NCBI RefSeq assembly: GCF_020217025.1 | Contig: NZ_JAIWOF010000159.1 | Span: 1-10,000 of the forward strand | Length of the DNA: 10,000 bases | Reading direction: 5' to 3' | Source of the DNA: Flavobacterium sp. | GTDB taxonomy: Bacteria > Bacteroidota > Bacteroidia > Flavobacteriales > Flavobacteriaceae | In this document: positions 1 through 10,000 of the stretch, piece after piece | Position numbering within the stretch: the first letter of the stretch is position 1 | Layout: each line of letters starts with the position of its first letter | Notes under the pieces: generated by a model | Seen by the model: only the letters and a program-made list of their open reading frames with translations | Database searches by the model: none | What the model was told of the DNA's origin: nothing | Made by a program: the position numbers and the translations under genes

Positions 1-98
1 ACCAAGCCATTACAAATATAACAAAACATTCCATTCAGCAGCGGATTTTCCGTAGGAAAATCCGGAAGTAGCCATTGAAGCAAACCGCTGTTGTGCAC
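1..98 (-). other. attC-like site of cassette 4 (partial, cut by window start)
   Basis: This is the first half (in coding direction) of an attC-like site. It has the core GTTGTGC at 90-96 on the plus strand (coding strand GCACAAC), a 1-nt spacer, then the arm ACCGC/GCGGT continuing inward. A perfect 10-bp hairpin with loop GTA lies at 42-64 (CGGATTTTCC and its complement). Positions 1-92 match 2353-2444 of the cassette 1 site at 90 of 92 bases, but the core bases differ because they follow the cassette 4 gene's own start core. The other arm lies before the window. Confidence 0.75.
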
Positions 99-103
99 AG
101 GCT

Positions 104-571
104 TTATTTTCGTTTTGATATTCTTATTAAGTTTGGAATAATAGAAATTATAGCACTTGCTCCTATAATAAATCCATAATTTATATCATCCCAATTTAAT
201 TTTCTTATTCCGTCATTACAAGCTGTACATTCTGCAACTTTCATATTAGCATCAATAAAGGAAATTGCTATTAATAAAATTCCAAAGATCAAAAGGCTTA
301 CAGTTAGACTTTTTAAAACTTGTATAAATTTTTGATTCAAATTTTCGAGAGTCAAAATCAAAAGTCCAATTCCGAATGTTATGAAATAAAGTTTATTTGA
401 GAAAATAAAAATATTTTTTCCAACGAATTGAATTTTGTCAGAAGTTGACCATTGAAAAATATCTTGTATTAAGCTACGAAAAAAACCTTCGGAATTAGAT
501 GCTATTACAATTCCTATTATATAAGCTAAAATTCCCAAAACTATCTTTTTTATAAACTTAAGTTTTTTCAT
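104..571 (-). CDS. Small four-helix membrane protein, cassette 4 cargo
   Basis: This encodes a 155-residue protein of unknown function, probably in the inner membrane. Four hydrophobic stretches are visible at about residues 8-25, 60-76, 86-106 and 131-148. A Cys-x-x-Cys pair (C115, C118) lies in the loop before the last helix and could bind metal or be redox-active, though no family is recognised. The ATG at 571 is chosen because it lies 15 bases inside the cassette. The frame stays open back to an ATG at 673, but that extension would translate the preceding attC-like palindrome, so I reject it. The stop at 104-106 lies 8 bases from the next core, giving the tight packing typical of integron cassettes. 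There is no Shine-Dalgarno sequence. A TATATTTG box inside the preceding attC-like site (649-656) could drive it. Confidence 0.72.
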   Translation of the reverse strand: MKKLKFIKKIVLGILAYIIGIVIASNSEGFFRSLIQDIFQWSTSDKIQFVGKNIFIFSNKLYFITFGIGLLILTLENLNQKFIQVLKSLTVSLLIFGILLIAISFIDANMKVAECTACNDGIRKLNWDDINYGFIIGASAIISIIPNLIRISKRK

Positions 572-579
572 AAGCTTGT

Positions 580-713
580 GCACAACGTCCCGTGGCTTTG
601 CGAAGTTTGGGTTTATATTGCCCCGAACCTTTCCATTTGGACTAAAGCCAAATATACAAAAAGATCTTTCCATTAAACACCCAAGCCCAAATTTCGCAAA
701 ACCACTGTTGTGT
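580..713 (-). other. attC-like site of cassette 3 (134 bp)
   Basis: The outer cores are GCACAAC (580-586) and GTTGTGT (707-713). Inside them the arms GTGGCTTTGCGAAGTTTGGG (592-611) and its near-complement (686-705) pair at 18 of 20 positions, and the two exceptions can form G-T pairs on one strand or the other. Spacers between core and arm are unequal: GTCCC on the left and a single T on the right. The loop carries CAAATATA (649-656), which is a perfect TATATTTG -7 box on the coding strand. Cleavage is expected between 586 and 585. Confidence 0.8.
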
Positions 714-717
714 GTAG

Positions 718-1533
718 TTAGAATTTATACTTTGAATTTAATTCTCTTGATAATCCTTCCAAGTCAGGAAAAATTGATGATTCGCTTATACCTGCTAACT
801 TTAACTGTTCTAACATTTGGTCTCGCTCTTTATACGAAATATTAATTTTAACAATTCTATTAAAATTCCTTTTTTTATAGACTGAATTTATTGTTGTGTT
901 TCCACTATGTAGTGTAAAGCATCCCTTTTGACGCAAAACACGTTCGTTTGAATAAGTTGGTGAAATTGCGATTGGTAATTCTTTTTTCTGATTTTGGAAA
1001 TTTAAATATTCCGATATTAATGTTTTGTTTGAATCATCATTAGTACGAATAATTGATGTTTTATTTAATGACAACATGTTTAATTCTTCAGGATTAATAA
1101 TCCATATACAAGGATCAATAAATTGATTATCCCCTTTATTTAGTTTTAGTGCGAAAAATAATGCAAATAAATATCCTTCAGTCCAATCTAAAAGCCTTGT
1201 TTTTAACCCAAAATGTTGCATAAGAAAGTACCATTCATGATTGTCAAAATTTTGACCAGCAATAAAACCTTTTGCTTTATCAAGAAACTCTTCTGTTAGA
1301 TTTTTTTCAGATTCAATTGAATATTCTTTTGCTCTGAAAATACTTGGAATTAATTTATAGTTTTTATTTGCATGCCCACGAAACCAAATTTTATTTGATT
1401 CGAAAATTTTTTGACTTGCAAAGTCAACATGAATGATATACTCCTCAAGAGATTTTATAGTCTTTACGGATTGTAAAAAATCGTTGCCTTTAAACATATC
1501 TGGAATATTTTCAATTTTAGTTTTACTTCTCAA
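718..1533 (-). CDS. FRG domain-containing protein, cassette 3 cargo
   Basis: This encodes a 271-residue cytosolic protein with a clear FRG domain. The name motif is at residues 51-53 (IWFRGHA). The most conserved block, QHFGLKTRLLDWTEG, is at 106-120, followed by FALFFALKL and the PCIWIINPEELN strand near 141-152. RVLRQKGCFTLH is at 198-209 and the C-terminal GISESSIFPDLEGLSREL at about 248-265. FRG proteins are widespread, often lie in mobile or defence-rich regions and in integron cassettes, and their biochemical activity is unsettled; a defence role here is inference. The longest frame begins with TTG at 1533, 40 bases inside the cassette and just after an in-frame stop. An ATG at 1497 (259 residues) is an equally plausible start. 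The stop codon at 718-720 lies 4 bases outside the next core. The gene appears complete. Confidence 0.88.
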   Translation of the reverse strand: MRSKTKIENIPDMFKGNDFLQSVKTIKSLEEYIIHVDFASQKIFESNKIWFRGHANKNYKLIPSIFRAKEYSIESEKNLTEEFLDKAKGFIAGQNFDNHEWYFLMQHFGLKTRLLDWTEGYLFALFFALKLNKGDNQFIDPCIWIINPEELNMLSLNKTSIIRTNDDSNKTLISEYLNFQNQKKELPIAISPTYSNERVLRQKGCFTLHSGNTTINSVYKKRNFNRIVKINISYKERDQMLEQLKLAGISESSIFPDLEGLSRELNSKYKF

Positions 1534-1567
1534 GTAAGCTTAACACGTGATTTTATGGACTAATTAC

Positions 1568-1700
1568 ACACAACGTTCCGCCGCTTCTCGTCAGTTGCGA
1601 ACTTCGGAACGAATTATTTTCTGTTAAAGATAAAAATTCTTGCGAAAGGTAAACGTGAACTTACCACAAAATTCGCAATTGCGAGAAACGGCTGTTGGCG
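1568..1700 (-). other. attC-like site of cassette 2 (133 bp)
   Basis: The cores are ACACAAC (1568-1574) and GTTGGCG (1694-1700). The left arm GCCGCTTCTCG-T-CAGTTGCG (1580-1599) pairs with CGCAATTGCGAGAAACGGC (1674-1692), leaving one unpaired T on the left arm, which recalls the extrahelical base that sets strand choice in classical attC sites. The spacers are GTTCC on the left and T on the right. The loop holds TATCTTTA on the coding strand (1625-1632), one base off the -7 consensus. Expected cleavage is between 1574 and 1573. Confidence 0.78.
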
Positions 1701-1712
1701 GTAGTTGTTTTT

Positions 1713-2267
1713 CTATAACTGCAACCATAAATAACCTTCTTTAAAGTTTTCAAATTCCTTTAAGTCTGTTAAATCTCTGTCGCAAATTGTGTTGGAAATA
1801 ACCAATCCATCCAAATATCTTTTCGGCAAAAAATCTGATGAATTGTAAAGCCCTAAAAAATATCCATTTGGTTCGCCACTTTCAATTTCCCCATAACCAT
1901 ATTCTAAAATATCAAAAATTGGATTGTTGTCTTGAACAAAATCAGCGCCTTCAAACTCATAAAAAGCAAAGCTAAATGACAATTTTAAATCTTTAAGAAA
2001 AGTATATAATGCGGTTCGTATTTCATAAAAATATTTCCCTTTGAGTAGTTTTAGATTTGTATTTGGAAGCTCCAAACCTAATGGAAATATTCCACAAGTG
2101 AATTGTTCTTTTTCGTTTAACAAATAATCGCATTTTGTTATAAATATTCGAAAACCCACTTCAGTGCTGTCACTTAAATAAAATTTATATTTTTCGAATT
2201 CTGATTTGCAATTTTCTGCGTTTTCAATATTGTCAAAAGTTATTCCTAACGAATAAAATGCTCCCAT
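1713..2267 (-). CDS. Hypothetical protein, cassette 2 cargo
   Basis: This encodes a 184-residue acidic protein that I do not recognise. It has no signal peptide, no membrane segment and no catalytic motif that I can see. Aromatic residues are frequent, with a run of Phe and Tyr around residues 92-106 (LKLSFSFAFYEFEGADF) and an acidic, glycine-containing stretch (YGYGEIESGEPNGYF) near 122-136. The overall impression is a compact soluble alpha/beta protein, as with many cassette-borne orphans and with immunity or antitoxin proteins; that comparison is only general. The ATG at 2267 lies 50 bases inside the cassette and the stop at 1713-1715 is 12 bases from the next core. A TATATTTG box in the preceding attC-like site (2365-2372) may supply a promoter. 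Confidence 0.75.
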   Translation of the reverse strand: MGAFYSLGITFDNIENAENCKSEFEKYKFYLSDSTEVGFRIFITKCDYLLNEKEQFTCGIFPLGLELPNTNLKLLKGKYFYEIRTALYTFLKDLKLSFSFAFYEFEGADFVQDNNPIFDILEYGYGEIESGEPNGYFLGLYNSSDFLPKRYLDGLVISNTICDRDLTDLKEFENFKEGYLWLQL

Positions 2268-2310
2268 GTTAAAGTATATTTCTCTCGATGTTTATCGGCG
2301 CCACAATTAC

Positions 2311-2448
2311 CGCCAACGTTCTGTGGCTTGCTCTCAGTGGCGTTGAACCAACACCAAGCCATTACAAATATAACAAAACATTCCATTGAGCAGCGGATTT
2401 TCCGTAGGAAAATACGGAAGTAGCCATTGAAGCAAACCGCTGTTAGGC
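2311..2448 (-). other. attC-like site of cassette 1 (138 bp)
   Basis: The cores are CGCCAAC (2311-2317) and GTTAGGC (2442-2448, exact GTTRRRY). The left arm GTGGCTTGCTCTCAGTGGC (2323-2341) pairs with GCCATTGAAGCAAACCGC (2423-2440) with one unpaired base on the left arm. The spacers are GTTCT on the left and T on the right. A hairpin with loop GTA (2394-2416, one mismatch) and the -7-like box CAAATATA (2365-2372) lie in the loop. The right 92 bases are nearly identical to positions 1-92. Expected cleavage is between 2317 and 2316. Confidence 0.8.
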
Positions 2449-2458
2449 ACAGTATTTT

Positions 2459-3181
2459 CTAAAATTGTTCTTTAAAAATACCATAATCAGTAAACGAATT
2501 TGACTTCATTTTCTTTTTTGGTGTTAAAAAATAAGTTTTATTGGATATTATTTCACTTGTATTTTTTGACAATATTAAATCCTCAATATCAATCGATATA
2601 ATTTCTAAGTTCTTTTTTTGTCTTATAACAATATTTGTCTTTTTTATCTTTAAACTATCAAGATGTTCAGGCTCCATACTTTTTATATCGTTTAAATTAT
2701 AGAAAATTATGCTGTCTCTTGTTTCCTTAAAATTTTCAAACTCGAATGTTCCTAAGCCACTATTTCTTTCCATAAAGCCTTCGTATTGAAATAATTTAGT
2801 TTTAATTTTTAAACCATTTTCTGATAAGCTTGATTCTTTAATTGGAGCGAAGTTTTTTTTCACATCATTTGATGAATTTTCATAATTAGGTTGTTCAAAT
2901 TCAATACCTTTAATTAGTTTTTTATTTGGAATATCTTCAAGATATGAAAACGGAAGATTTTTTGAAATATCAACTTCAAATGTTTCTGTTGAATCTAATA
3001 AAATATAACCTGAAACCATTGTGTCTCTTCCGCCAGATGCGTTATATTTGTATAAAATTTTTGAAGTTCCCTCAATTTTTTGAACATAAAGAGCTGTGCT
3101 CCATTCTCTACTGCAACTATTGAAAAAAAAAGAAAAATAAATAAAAATAAATATCGATATTAAATTCTTATAACATTGCAT
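2459..3181 (-). CDS. Putative lipoprotein, cassette 1 cargo
   Basis: This encodes a 240-residue protein of no recognised family. Residues 1-22 form a hydrophobic signal segment rich in Phe, Ile and Tyr, ending in FNSC with Cys23 as the probable lipidated residue (signal peptidase II). The residues after Cys23 (SREW) do not match the acidic surface-export signal of Bacteroidota lipoproteins, so a periplasm-facing position is more likely. The mature part is polar and rich in Lys, Ser, Glu and Asn, with an IVIRQKKNLEIISIDIEDLI stretch near 185-204 that looks like beta strands. This is the cassette nearest the recombinase, so in a classical integron it would be the most recent arrival and the best expressed. 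The ATG at 3181 is 42 bases inside the cassette and the stop is about 10 bases from the next core. Confidence 0.8.
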   Translation of the reverse strand: MQCYKNLISIFIFIYFSFFFNSCSREWSTALYVQKIEGTSKILYKYNASGGRDTMVSGYILLDSTETFEVDISKNLPFSYLEDIPNKKLIKGIEFEQPNYENSSNDVKKNFAPIKESSLSENGLKIKTKLFQYEGFMERNSGLGTFEFENFKETRDSIIFYNLNDIKSMEPEHLDSLKIKKTNIVIRQKKNLEIISIDIEDLILSKNTSEIISNKTYFLTPKKKMKSNSFTDYGIFKEQF

Positions 3182-3216
3182 TGATATTCTTTTTGAGTTT
3201 TTTGGGGTAATATTGT

Positions 3217-3223
3217 GCCTAAC
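3217..3223 (-). other. attI-like lone core site (GTTAGGC)
   Basis: The coding strand reads GTTAGGC, an exact GTTRRRY core, 44 bases past the recombinase stop codon. Unlike the other four sites it has no palindromic arms on the recombinase side, so it is a simple site as expected of attI. Further AGTT-starting octamers lie between it and the stop codon (AGTTAAAA, AGTTGTAT and AGTTTTTA), reminiscent of the accessory integrase-binding repeats of attI1, but this is A+T-rich DNA and the match is weak. The alternative is that it is the remaining half of a truncated attC site. Confidence 0.65.
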
Positions 3224-3236
3224 TAGTAAATATCAT

Positions 3237-3244
3237 CAAATATA
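3237..3244 (-). promoter_or_regulatory. Candidate cassette promoter (-7 box TATATTTG)
   Basis: A perfect Bacteroidota -7 box TAnnTTTG lies on the coding strand between the recombinase stop codon and the attI-like core. Transcription would begin near 3230, just before the insertion point, and run into cassette 1, as a Pc promoter does. No good -33 TTTG element is found at the usual distance, so this is tentative. No terminator is visible after the recombinase gene either, so readthrough from it is another source of cassette transcription. Confidence 0.4.
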
Positions 3245-3267
3245 TACAACTTTTTTAACTTTAAAAA

Positions 3268-5010
3268 CTATTCTTCAAGTTTTTTCTTACCTTTTATGTC
3301 AACCATTCTATCTAACGGACTCTGTATTCTATCAACAGCAGTTTTCGTTAAATGCGTATAAACAGTCGTGGTTTTTATACTCGAATGCCCTAAAAATTGC
3401 TGAATGTAGCGGATATCCGTGCCATTCTCTAACAAATGGGTCGCAAAACTATGACGCAACGTATGCACCGTAGCCTTCTTCTCTAAACCCGATAACTTTA
3501 TAGCATTGCGCATCACCTGTTGCACACTTCCGGTACTGTAAGGCTCGCCCGCAAACTGACCCTCAAAAACATAATGCTTACCCTTATAAAGTTCTCTATA
3601 AAGCTGTAAAGAAGTAACAATAGAGTAGGGCAACATCACCATTCTGTCTTTCTTACCCTTAGCATTCTTAACATGAATCTTGTGTTCCTCAAATAAAATA
3701 TCATTCCATTTCAAACTCACAATCTCACTCACACGCAAGCCAGCACCATAACCTATCAACAACAAAAGCTTGTGTTTCGGATTATCTACAACTTTAAAAA
3801 TCTGCAAACATTCCTCCATAGTCAATACAACAGGCAACTTTTTCTCCTTCTTTGGTCGTGGAAGTACAAAACTATAGTCAACTTTCCCTAAAACTTGCTG
3901 ATAATAAAATTGAACCCCATTCACCATACTATGTCCACTCGTAGCAGATAAACCACGCTCCATCAAAGAGCCTAAAAAACGAATAATTTCCTCCCTAGTA
4001 ACATCCTCAGGATTTCGAAACTCAAAAAAGCGTAAAAATTGAATAAAAGCACCACAATACGTTCGCAAGGTCGAACTACTATAATTCAAAGCCAATAAAG
4101 TGTCAATCATCTTACTTAAATAACTTTGGGCTTGCTCTGGAACTAAATCCAGTAAGCTTTTCTTCGTTTTAGATAAGTCCAATTGTTTTTTATTAGGCAA
4201 ATTTCGTTTGTCCAAATAATGTTTCGGAAGCAAAGAGGCAATAGTAATACCAGAAGATTCAAACTGTAAATGCAAAGAATCCATCACAACAGGCGCAGCC
4301 GGAAGCAAATAACACCCCTTAATCTTACTGTAGCGAGACATCGAAAAACGCTTTAATTTCTCATGAACCGCAACCATTTTAGGAACATGAACTTCCATCC
4401 AAGCCACATCTTCTAAATGAGGCAAAATCCTAATTTCTCCCTTACCAACAAACGAATCTTTAACAAAATAATCCGTACCAAAAAAGTCAGAAACGCCTAA
4501 AATCTTTTCCACCTCATGCTTTACAACTTCATTTCTAAAAACCATATAGCTTTTATAAGTTCCGTTCCAATAAACCCCTTTAGTCTTCAAAAGTTGTTTA
4601 CTAATTTCATGATGAAAATGCATCTTAAAAACCCAATATTTACCAATACTCGGCAACAATTGTAACTTCAATTTATCCGAAGTTATTACAGTTGGTTTAT
4701 GTTCAGGATTACTCAAAGCAGAGTCTAACTGAAGAGCGCTTGAAGAAGCTATGGGTGAAAGGTCACGGTTATTAATACCGGTCACCATATTGGAAATTGT
4801 AGATTCAGTAACCACCACCAAATCCGGAAAATGAGAACGCAACAAATGATAAGAAGCCTTAGAATAATCCAAATACCAACACCTGCGAGAACCACTATAA
4901 GTAGCACCAAGACGTTTTAAAACGGCAATAATTTCAAAATCCTTATCAAAAAACACCCCAATGCGATAAGCACCATGGTGAAAAATCTTCTCAATACGTA
5001 TATTCTTCAT
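3268..5010 (-). CDS. Integron-integrase-like tyrosine recombinase with long N-terminal extension
   Basis: This encodes a 580-residue tyrosine recombinase. Residues 291-382 form the SAM-like core-binding domain (SSSTLRTYCGAFIQFLRFF) and 392-570 the catalytic domain. The catalytic set is complete: R426 (GYGAGLRVSE), K451 (AKGKKDR), H516 and R519 (HTLRHSFATHLL), H542 (LGHSS) and nucleophile Y551. The ending RIQSPLDRM recalls the SPLD tail of IntI proteins. R426 to H516 is 90 residues, as in Xer recombinases and well short of IntI1 (R146 to H277), so the IntI-specific insertion is absent. Residues 1-270 carry three copies of a weakly conserved module (about 5-63, 117-173, 193-253), described in the findings. 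It lies next to the cassettes and an attI-like core, which suggests it excises and inserts them. The ATG at 5010 is preferred over a frame opening at 5076 because that opening overlaps the promoter. Confidence 0.93.
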   Translation of the reverse strand: MKNIRIEKIFHHGAYRIGVFFDKDFEIIAVLKRLGATYSGSRRCWYLDYSKASYHLLRSHFPDLVVVTESTISNMVTGINNRDLSPIASSSALQLDSALSNPEHKPTVITSDKLKLQLLPSIGKYWVFKMHFHHEISKQLLKTKGVYWNGTYKSYMVFRNEVVKHEVEKILGVSDFFGTDYFVKDSFVGKGEIRILPHLEDVAWMEVHVPKMVAVHEKLKRFSMSRYSKIKGCYLLPAAPVVMDSLHLQFESSGITIASLLPKHYLDKRNLPNKKQLDLSKTKKSLLDLVPEQAQSYLSKMIDTLLALNYSSSTLRTYCGAFIQFLRFFEFRNPEDVTREEIIRFLGSLMERGLSATSGHSMVNGVQFYYQQVLGKVDYSFVLPRPKKEKKLPVVLTMEECLQIFKVVDNPKHKLLLLIGYGAGLRVSEIVSLKWNDILFEEHKIHVKNAKGKKDRMVMLPYSIVTSLQLYRELYKGKHYVFEGQFAGEPYSTGSVQQVMRNAIKLSGLEKKATVHTLRHSFATHLLENGTDIRYIQQFLGHSSIKTTTVYTHLTKTAVDRIQSPLDRMVDIKGKKKLEE

Positions 5011-5083: not shown

Positions 5084-5356
5084 CTTCCGTCACTTCGAAA
5101 TCACACCACCGTCACTTCGAGTGATTTTATATTTTAAAAATGCCAATTTTTGAAATATAAAATTGTATCTAGAACTGTAGAACCGAAATAACGCTACCGT
5201 CACTTCGAGTGTTTTGTAATAGTAAAGCCCAAGATTTACTATTACAAAATGTATCGAGAACTACAAAAACGTATTCCCACGACCATCACGTCGAGTATTT
5301 TATAGCTGTAAAGCCTAAGATTAACAACTTAAAAATGTATCGAGAACTATAGAAAC
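5084..5356. repeat. Three diverged copies of a palindromic intergenic repeat
   Basis: Units start at 5109, 5197 and 5283, spaced 88 and 86 bases apart, with a fragment at 5086-5097. Each begins with a variant of CCGTCACTTCGAGTG, contains an inverted repeat, and ends with a variant of GTATCGAGAACTA. In the second unit the inner arms TTTTGTAATAGTAAA (5212-5226) and TTTACTATTACAAAA (5235-5249) are perfect complements. In the others the arms have drifted while keeping some pairing, as expected if the hairpin matters more than the sequence. Similar TCGAG-containing repeats occur between genes in Flavobacterium as far as I recall. There is no coding potential here. Confidence 0.7.
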
Positions 5357-5460
5357 AAAACAACATCATATTTTGTCAAGTCAAGCGAAGTCGAGACTTC
5401 ATAGATACTAGGAAGATACTTGGAACATAAAGCACAGATATAGCACTGATAAAGCACAGT

Positions 5461-5559
5461 TAGTGTATGCTTAGTGTATGGATAGTGTATGGATAGTGTA
5501 TGCGGAGTGTATGCTAGAAGTATGGATACTATATGCTAGAGGTATGTCAAAAGTATGTT
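5461..5559. repeat. Tandem 11-bp repeat, nine copies
   Basis: Nine consecutive 11-base units stay exactly in phase. The first five are nearly identical (TAGTGTATGCT, TAGTGTATGGA twice, TAGTGTATGCG, GAGTGTATGCT) and the last four have drifted (AGAAGTATGGA, TACTATATGCT, AGAGGTATGTC, AAAAGTATGTT). All keep TATG or ATATG at the same place. The unit is not a multiple of three and the array is not inside a gene. The rest of the gap from 5357 to 5460 holds short A+T-rich repeats (AAGCACAG, ATAGCACTG) and nothing I can name. Confidence 0.85.
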
Positions 5560-9888: not shown

Positions 9889-10000
9889 TTGAACTTGAAC
9901 TTGCCCTTGAACTTGCCCTTGAACTTGCCCTTGAACTTGCCCTTGAACTTGAACTTGCCCTTGACCTTGCCCTTGACCTTGCCCTTGAATTTGAACTTGA
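9889..10000. repeat. Hexameric tandem repeat TTGAAC/TTGCCC (runs off the window)
   Basis: Eighteen complete hexamers plus TTGA are exactly in phase. TTGAAC and TTGCCC mostly alternate, so the real period is partly 12 bp, with TTGACC variants in two places and one TTGAAT near the end. The array begins 124 bases after the DUF1697 stop codon. The 9766-9888 stretch holds three copies of GTTTAAAAG (9768, 9784, 9792) and nothing else that I recognise. On the minus strand the array is an open frame of alternating Gln and Gly, Val or Ile codons ending in TAA at 9880-9882, so it could be the tail of a gene beyond the window. Confidence 0.9.

Follow-up and report, generated by a model that had tools for sequence, protein, structure and literature searches.

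The recombination sites of integron cassettes (attC) are described with the terms L'', L' and extrahelical base, and in work on the integrase VchIntI4 the I2 domain reportedly contacts the extrahelical bases. In the passages of Ghaly 2022 (PMC9668308) drawn on here, the additional domain is the defining feature of the integrase IntI, and the selection step given in part of an early survey (PMC2426708) kept proteins if the additional domain or an intI patch was present. For Bacteroidetes, sections of the IntegronFinder 2.0 paper (PMC9024848) mention earlier finds of In0 elements and a single complete integron, that of Salinibacter ruber, and the portion of a 2021 paper (PMC8352920) on taxon-specific attC models contains none for this group. 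The window analyzed here is the whole of a 10,000-nucleotide (nt) stretch of Flavobacterium sp. DNA (contig NZ_JAIWOF010000159.1 of assembly GCF_020217025.1), a 10-kb contig of a 2.5-Mb genome in 238 contigs. It very probably holds the recombinase-bearing end of an integron-like chromosomal array from a lineage parallel to IntI, in which the neighboring tyrosine recombinase would carry out the recombination. This lineage has probably been overlooked because surveys require the additional domain. No description of this system, which is without that domain (I2-less), was found among open-licence PMC papers; preprints and most subscription papers lay outside that scope, and a prior description is possible.

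Anatomy of the locus and turnover at attI

The minus strand of the window contains a complete integron-like locus comprising a recombinase gene, an attI site, three full cassettes, and a fourth cassette truncated at the contig end. The recombinase open reading frame (ORF) reads towards the array, in the same direction as the cassettes. The attC scores in the following list were obtained with R1, a covariance model of the window-type attC.

3268-5010, minus strand: tyrosine recombinase, 580 amino acids (aa), ATG at 5010 (Pfam PF13495 and PF00589, TIGR02249, motif spacing, AlphaFold models)
3223-3267, minus strand: left part of attI, with a conserved flank ...GTTGTATATATTTGATGATATTTACTAG that runs as far as the G in G|TT, common to ten loci and followed there by different cassettes
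2317-3222, minus strand: cassette 1, 906 bp; ORF at 2459-3181, 240 aa, without a family match
2311-2448, minus strand: attC of cassette 1, 138 bp, cut at 2317/2316 (R1 61.3 bits)
1574-2316, minus strand: cassette 2, 743 bp; ORF at 1713-2267, 184 aa, without a family match
1568-1700, minus strand: attC of cassette 2, 133 bp, cut at 1574/1573 (R1 104.7 bits)
586-1573, minus strand: cassette 3, 988 bp; ORF at 718-1533, an FRG-domain protein (Pfam FRG, 1.2e-22) that matches PDC-S15, a candidate anti-phage family (PADLOC, 1.6e-53)
580-713, minus strand: attC of cassette 3, 134 bp, cut at 586/585 (R1 96.3 bits)
1-585, minus strand: cassette 4, incomplete; ORF at about 104-571, with a DNA relative of the ORF region (69%) in genome G031
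1-96, minus strand: partial attC of cassette 4, truncated at the contig end (R1 E value 0.069)

An earlier sequence-only reading had described four minus-strand gene units between palindromes of 133 to 138 bp, with junctions at 2317/2316, 1574/1573 and 586/585. The palindromes measure 134, 133 and 138 bp with a partial fourth, and the three junctions are indeed exact G|TT points; a fourth, 3223/3222, is the attI junction and lies 44 nt 3' of the recombinase stop codon. The recombinase gene, absent from that reading, belongs to the system.

The attI site was recognized by comparison with related loci, in a sample of one genome per species. Ten loci in nine genomes, with recombinase identities of 64 to 100%, share the flank ...ATATTTACTAG|TT, ending ACTAG|TT, and then diverge into ten different cassette starts; an eleventh (L274) was dropped for runs of N. 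Two of the ten (L266 and L267) lie in a single genome, G649, where the recombinase and attI are each present twice, with a different first cassette at each copy. In 27 of 33 loci the junction falls 34 to 178 nt beyond the stop codon of the recombinase, and in the other six it falls 222 to 943 nt beyond it. In 31 of the 33, the start core agreed in at least 6 of 7 bases, a figure for which the best GTT in the interval was taken, which favors matches. In the first cassette of the window, the core is complementary to its own start at 7/7 positions. Breakpoints elsewhere and the same genes in fixed order had been named in the sequence-only reading as observations that would speak against cassettes; the breakpoints that were tested lie exactly at G|TT at the attI of the ten loci and at one lone cassette in another species, and the first cassettes differ across the ten loci.

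The lone cassette, a homologue of cassette 1 (78%), occurs in genome G544 between AAA-type and miaB-like genes (labels from the authors' own reading of the sequence) and has the same cores as bounds. Its attC gave no match to the R1 model. A lone cassette at L226 (5814-6596) sits outside any R1 array and has an attC without an R1 match. It is conceivable that the array is a product of past activity and that the system is now inactive in the genome of the window, since one genome cannot date the last recombination and since sequences closely related to the G544 lone cassette sit outside any R1 array. Such a fossil is unlikely, however, given that an intact recombinase is present and that first cassettes already differ between loci whose recombinases are 96% identical, two of these loci being in the same genome.

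Cassette cores and two attC designs

A scan of related loci recovered 62 sites of the same build as the window attCs; a filter on core letters had given 37 sites and lost many, and the 62 were obtained with a relaxed filter. The cores have an invariant AAC/GTT, with a purine after GTT in 60 of the 62 sites, and are variable beyond GTTR. The RYYYAAC/GTTRRRY pattern proposed from the sequence alone therefore fits only loosely. The claim that the core of a cassette is complementary across its two ends and differs between neighbors was borne out on a larger scale, as in 123 of 128 consecutive pairs the R'' core matches the start of its own cassette in at least 6 of 7 bases (mean over all pairs, 6.56), compared with means of 3.03 for the next cassette start and 3.0 for others; matches to the next cassette occur in 8/128. 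This count excludes 13 pairs in which AAC or GTT was off the model position, and in both window sites that were scored, R'' is complementary to its own start at 7/7.

The window palindromes fold better than shuffled sequences (z of -1.9 to -4.5 in six folds of three sites on both strands, with 200 shuffles each). Across 38 sites from the window and its relatives, all 17 of the 17 L-stem pairs have two-sided changes, with 204 such cells compared with 64.5 in shuffles, and 89.1% of the cells pair, compared with 29 to 40% when slid. An Rfam search of the window gave zero matches up to an E value of 1. Of 112 cassettes, 93 have their longest ORF in the direction of the array and 12 in the opposite direction, and 7 have none.

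Extrahelical bases were compared in sites gathered by core pairing alone, a structure-free procedure to which 28 I2-less and 10 IntI loci were given and which found sites in 26 and 6 of them, respectively. A bulge in the left arm gains at least three pairs in 22 of 25 sites from IntI loci and in only 1 of 108 I2-less sites. An earlier measure (0/61 versus 21/22) was rejected as biased, the 61 sites having come from a scanner that requires ungapped stems, and the finding of zero canonical attCs by that scanner at eight IntI loci was also rejected as evidence because the scanner is blind to them. In the I2-less sites, an A-C lies beside AAC/GTT in 109/113 and a C-A at the outer end in 92/113; among the 70 sites in the 1/5 spacer register, stem position 5 is a T-G in 64 and position 14 an A-C in 43. 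On the bottom strand, the A-C beside AAC/GTT, the outer C-A and the A-C at position 14 read as T-G or G-T wobbles, and on the top strand they are mismatches; stem position 5 behaves the opposite way, its T-G being a wobble on the top strand and a mismatch on the bottom strand. The 1/5 spacer asymmetry was considered as a lineage-specific trait and rejected, since canonical Bacteroidota sites are similarly offset (best at 2,6 in 10/21 and at 1,5 in 3/21).

Recombinase type and its linkage to attC type

The window recombinase consists of three beta-beta-alpha-beta-beta-alpha repeats at the N terminus (about residues 1 to 260), a SAM-like core-binding domain and a catalytic domain. Against the integron integrase model TIGR02249 it scores 209.6 bits, below the cut-off of 265, in a match split into two stretches, and the split falls at the position of the IntI additional domain. 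The spacing from the KGxKDR motif to the HxLRH motif is 59 residues, compared with 100 in annotated IntI1, and the gap between the aligned stretches is 26 residues, compared with 68 in VchIntI4. The motif spacing is 58 to 63 in related Bacteroidota loci where it was measurable (L067 was left out), and it is 100 in eight IntI proteins from other phyla and in 12 of 12 Bacteroidota IntI loci. The window recombinase lacks the IntI-specific additional (I2) domain. It also falls under the cut-off of every Xer equivalog in NCBIfam (TIGR02224, 166 versus 335.15 bits; TIGR02225, 163.3 versus 329.6 bits). In structure searches, the catalytic part of the AlphaFold model is near both VchIntI4 and XerA, with XerA equally close, and the N-terminal repeats gave weak matches only, to XPB, UvsW and HARP domains (VIA and Foldseek; without a clear fold). 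Among the 120 relatives listed, those that bear a name carry recombinase, XerD or tyrosine-type recombinase, and integron integrase appears in none.

In the tree, the pairing of the window enzyme with L039 and the IntI clade are both firm (100/100), the Bacteroidota enzymes form several deep lineages, and the two Xer-like proteins of the window genome are separate from the group. The window lineage grouped with IntI, Patescibacteria and others at a support of 87/87, and this node was drawn open; the tree was rejected as proof that the lineage is sister to IntI, because that support leaves the placement open. Two I2-less recombinases (L231, 7543-8415, and L042, 9473-10555) have arrays that are upstream and divergent, like those of canonical integrons, and the L231 enzyme is also without the N-terminal repeats. 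On a Peregrinibacteria contig (L085, 8219-8372), a palindrome with AAC/GTT ends and a 1/4 spacer lies near a related recombinase, possibly a similar system in Patescibacteria.

R1 gave 137 matches in 99 sources, all of which were Bacteroidota-labelled loci or genomes of the same order. The window genome has 22 R1 places at E<=0.05, and 84 were found in Flavobacterium enshiense DK69, 16 in Algibacter onchidii and 10 in Winogradskyella ursingii. With stricter filters, R1 sites were present in 145 of 296 Bacteroidota genomes, or about half, with per-genome counts that are lower bounds (no more than 11 candidates were scored in each genome), and in 0 of 200 genomes from the phylum of a Rubrivivax genome (Pseudomonadota), a search whose positive control was the separate Bacteroidota search only. 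There were also no matches in 29 non-Bacteroidota genomes or on a class 1 integron plasmid. Sites 92 to 98% identical to the attC of cassette 2 occur beside other neighbors in several genomes of the same genus. One further locus (L230, genome G410) has 26 close-set sites in 20 kb, many of them more than 90% identical to window 2311-2448, with different genes between them.

The attC type is linked to the recombinase type. Of 24 Bacteroidota loci whose downstream sequence extends for 1.5 kb or more, 17 have an R1 site there, and all 68 downstream hits are on the recombinase strand, with three hits upstream. R1 sites occur in 83 of 93 genomes that have the recombinase (E<1e-75), compared with 62 of 203 others (Fisher, 2e-22), and the figure is 45 of 46 at E<1e-109; both cut-offs were picked after earlier results had been seen. 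R1 sites are present in 61 of 68 genomes with only this recombinase, in 22 of 25 with both enzymes, and in 10 of 59 with only IntI.

Canonical IntI itself is not rare in Bacteroidota, being over its cut-off in 84 of the 296 genomes (for example, at L289, L290, L295 and L296), a number that was unexpected and stands above the reports in the cited parts of the papers named above. The sequence-only reading had called integrons much less described in this phylum, a point that this count corrects, although no IntI was found in the window genome (E<=1e-60) or in the 30 family genomes of the sample. Chains of paired cores at 12 IntI loci were upstream and divergent in 10, downstream only in L285 and missing from L287, with a control of 0 everywhere. 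The possibility that the window is a canonical integron whose IntI was replaced or lost, with cassettes moved by an IntI in trans and the recombinase next door doing something else, can draw on these IntI genes and on integrase-less integrons, described as common in the relevant passages of PMC9668308. It is nonetheless quite improbable, because no IntI was found in the window genome or in the 30 sampled genomes of its family, R1 sites track the I2-less recombinase instead of IntI, attCs at IntI loci are of a different build, and attI adjoins the I2-less recombinase in 33 loci. That the palindromes are ordinary dispersed repeats that happen to part small genes near a phage-type integrase, a refuting outcome named in the sequence-only reading, is hardly credible: near-identical palindromes do recur within and across genomes, but their cores are cassette specific, their breakpoints exact, their orientation single, and they are associated with the recombinase.

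Several observations weigh against an integron-like system run by the I2-less recombinase. Seven of the 24 loci with sufficient downstream sequence are without a downstream R1 match. R1 sites occur in 52 of 144 genomes with neither enzyme, 24 of which have at least three; these may be clusters without a recombinase, cases of an enzyme that was missed, or false hits. Arrays are also found with short relatives that lack the N-terminal domain, so that not every member of the group needs it. A right-arm bulge, which helps 7 of 25 IntI sites, also helps 25 of 108 I2-less sites, and the 1/5 spacer register is kept in only 70 of 113. The A-C beside AAC/GTT is found in 16 of 21 canonical sites as well and hence is not special to the I2-less lineage, and 3 of the 12 canonical IntI loci give weak R1 matches (18.9 to 28.3 bits), so the attC types are not wholly unlike. 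Recombination by this enzyme, circular intermediates and use of the bottom strand are inferred.

Among 98 cassette proteins, two match Shedu SduA and one each matches restriction-modification, GajB and AbiL models, with matches to metal transport, SUKH and IS110 transposase families among the others. The system is a common one whose cassettes carry phage defence and metal-resistance genes, and it is invisible to surveys that select on the additional domain. Elsewhere in the window, a 12-bp minisatellite (CTTGAACTTGCC-like) occupies 9889-10000 at the contig end, with similar sequence opening contig C157, and 11-bp tandem AGTGTATGGAT-like repeats and a spaced repeat of 86 to 88 bp lie upstream of the recombinase at 5451-5535 and 5096-5358.

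Proposed mechanism and comparison with known systems

In the proposed mechanism, the recombinase (3268-5010) would recombine attC sites into attI at 3223/3222, with the attCs probably folded as single bottom strands, a substrate with which the hairpin folds are consistent. Cassettes would enter as circles at G|TT, so that each would start with TT and end in an attC whose R'' is complementary to that start. New cassettes would land by attI as older ones shift away. The cassette ORFs point the same way as the array and the recombinase. The conserved non-Watson-Crick A-C/G-T positions are proposed to carry the strand signal in place of extrahelical bases, and the N-terminal repeats possibly help to read the hairpin. 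The broader proposal, for which the balance seems even, is that there are two integron designs. In one, IntI with its I2 domain would read extrahelical bases; in the other, an I2-less tyrosine recombinase, widespread in Bacteroidota, would read hairpins without them, choosing the strand by the A-C/G-T positions, with N-terminal repeats similar to DNA-fork-reading domains assisting in some members. Either the I2-less design would be older or cassette capture would have arisen more than once. Here two independent traits depart at once from the canonical design, an enzyme domain that has been described as a requirement for integron activity and the DNA feature that this domain supposedly reads, and the minimal needs of single-strand cassette recombination therefore become directly testable.

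The system works like an integron yet lies outside the canonical integron family under the definition of that family, since tests for two of the defining features came out negative. Of the hallmarks of canonical integrons, the locus and its relatives have an attI by the recombinase gene, exchange at G|TT, and AAC/GTT cores with an R'' that fits its own start. The additional domain, extrahelical bases in the L'' arm (1/108) and a recombinase divergent from its cassettes (the direction is the same in 68/68) were looked for and are absent. The absent IntI domain and the different attC build agree with the distinct lineage suggested in the sequence-only reading.

Compared with canonical chromosomal integrons, the array has the same one-direction run of mostly single-gene cassettes and the same imperfect hairpin attCs, with unequal spacers and the complementarity of R'' to its own start that is also seen in the aadA2 cassette (L276). 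It differs in that the window enzyme is without the additional domain, has extra N-terminal repeats and is transcribed towards attI, and in that the L stem of the window-type attC has no left-arm extrahelical bases. Integrons of Bacteroidota with IntI share the phylum and the cassette chains beside the integrase, but they have the 100-residue spacing, chains that are mostly upstream and divergent, and attCs that need an extrahelical base (22/25). XerC, XerD and archaeal XerA share the catalytic fold, whereas the window enzyme is below the Xer cut-offs and is tied to a cassette array. Treponema integrons, as presented in part of PMC3607928, resemble the window in that intI is transcribed towards attI, along the cassettes; they are defined there by intI, in contrast to the window locus, whose enzyme is without the additional domain.

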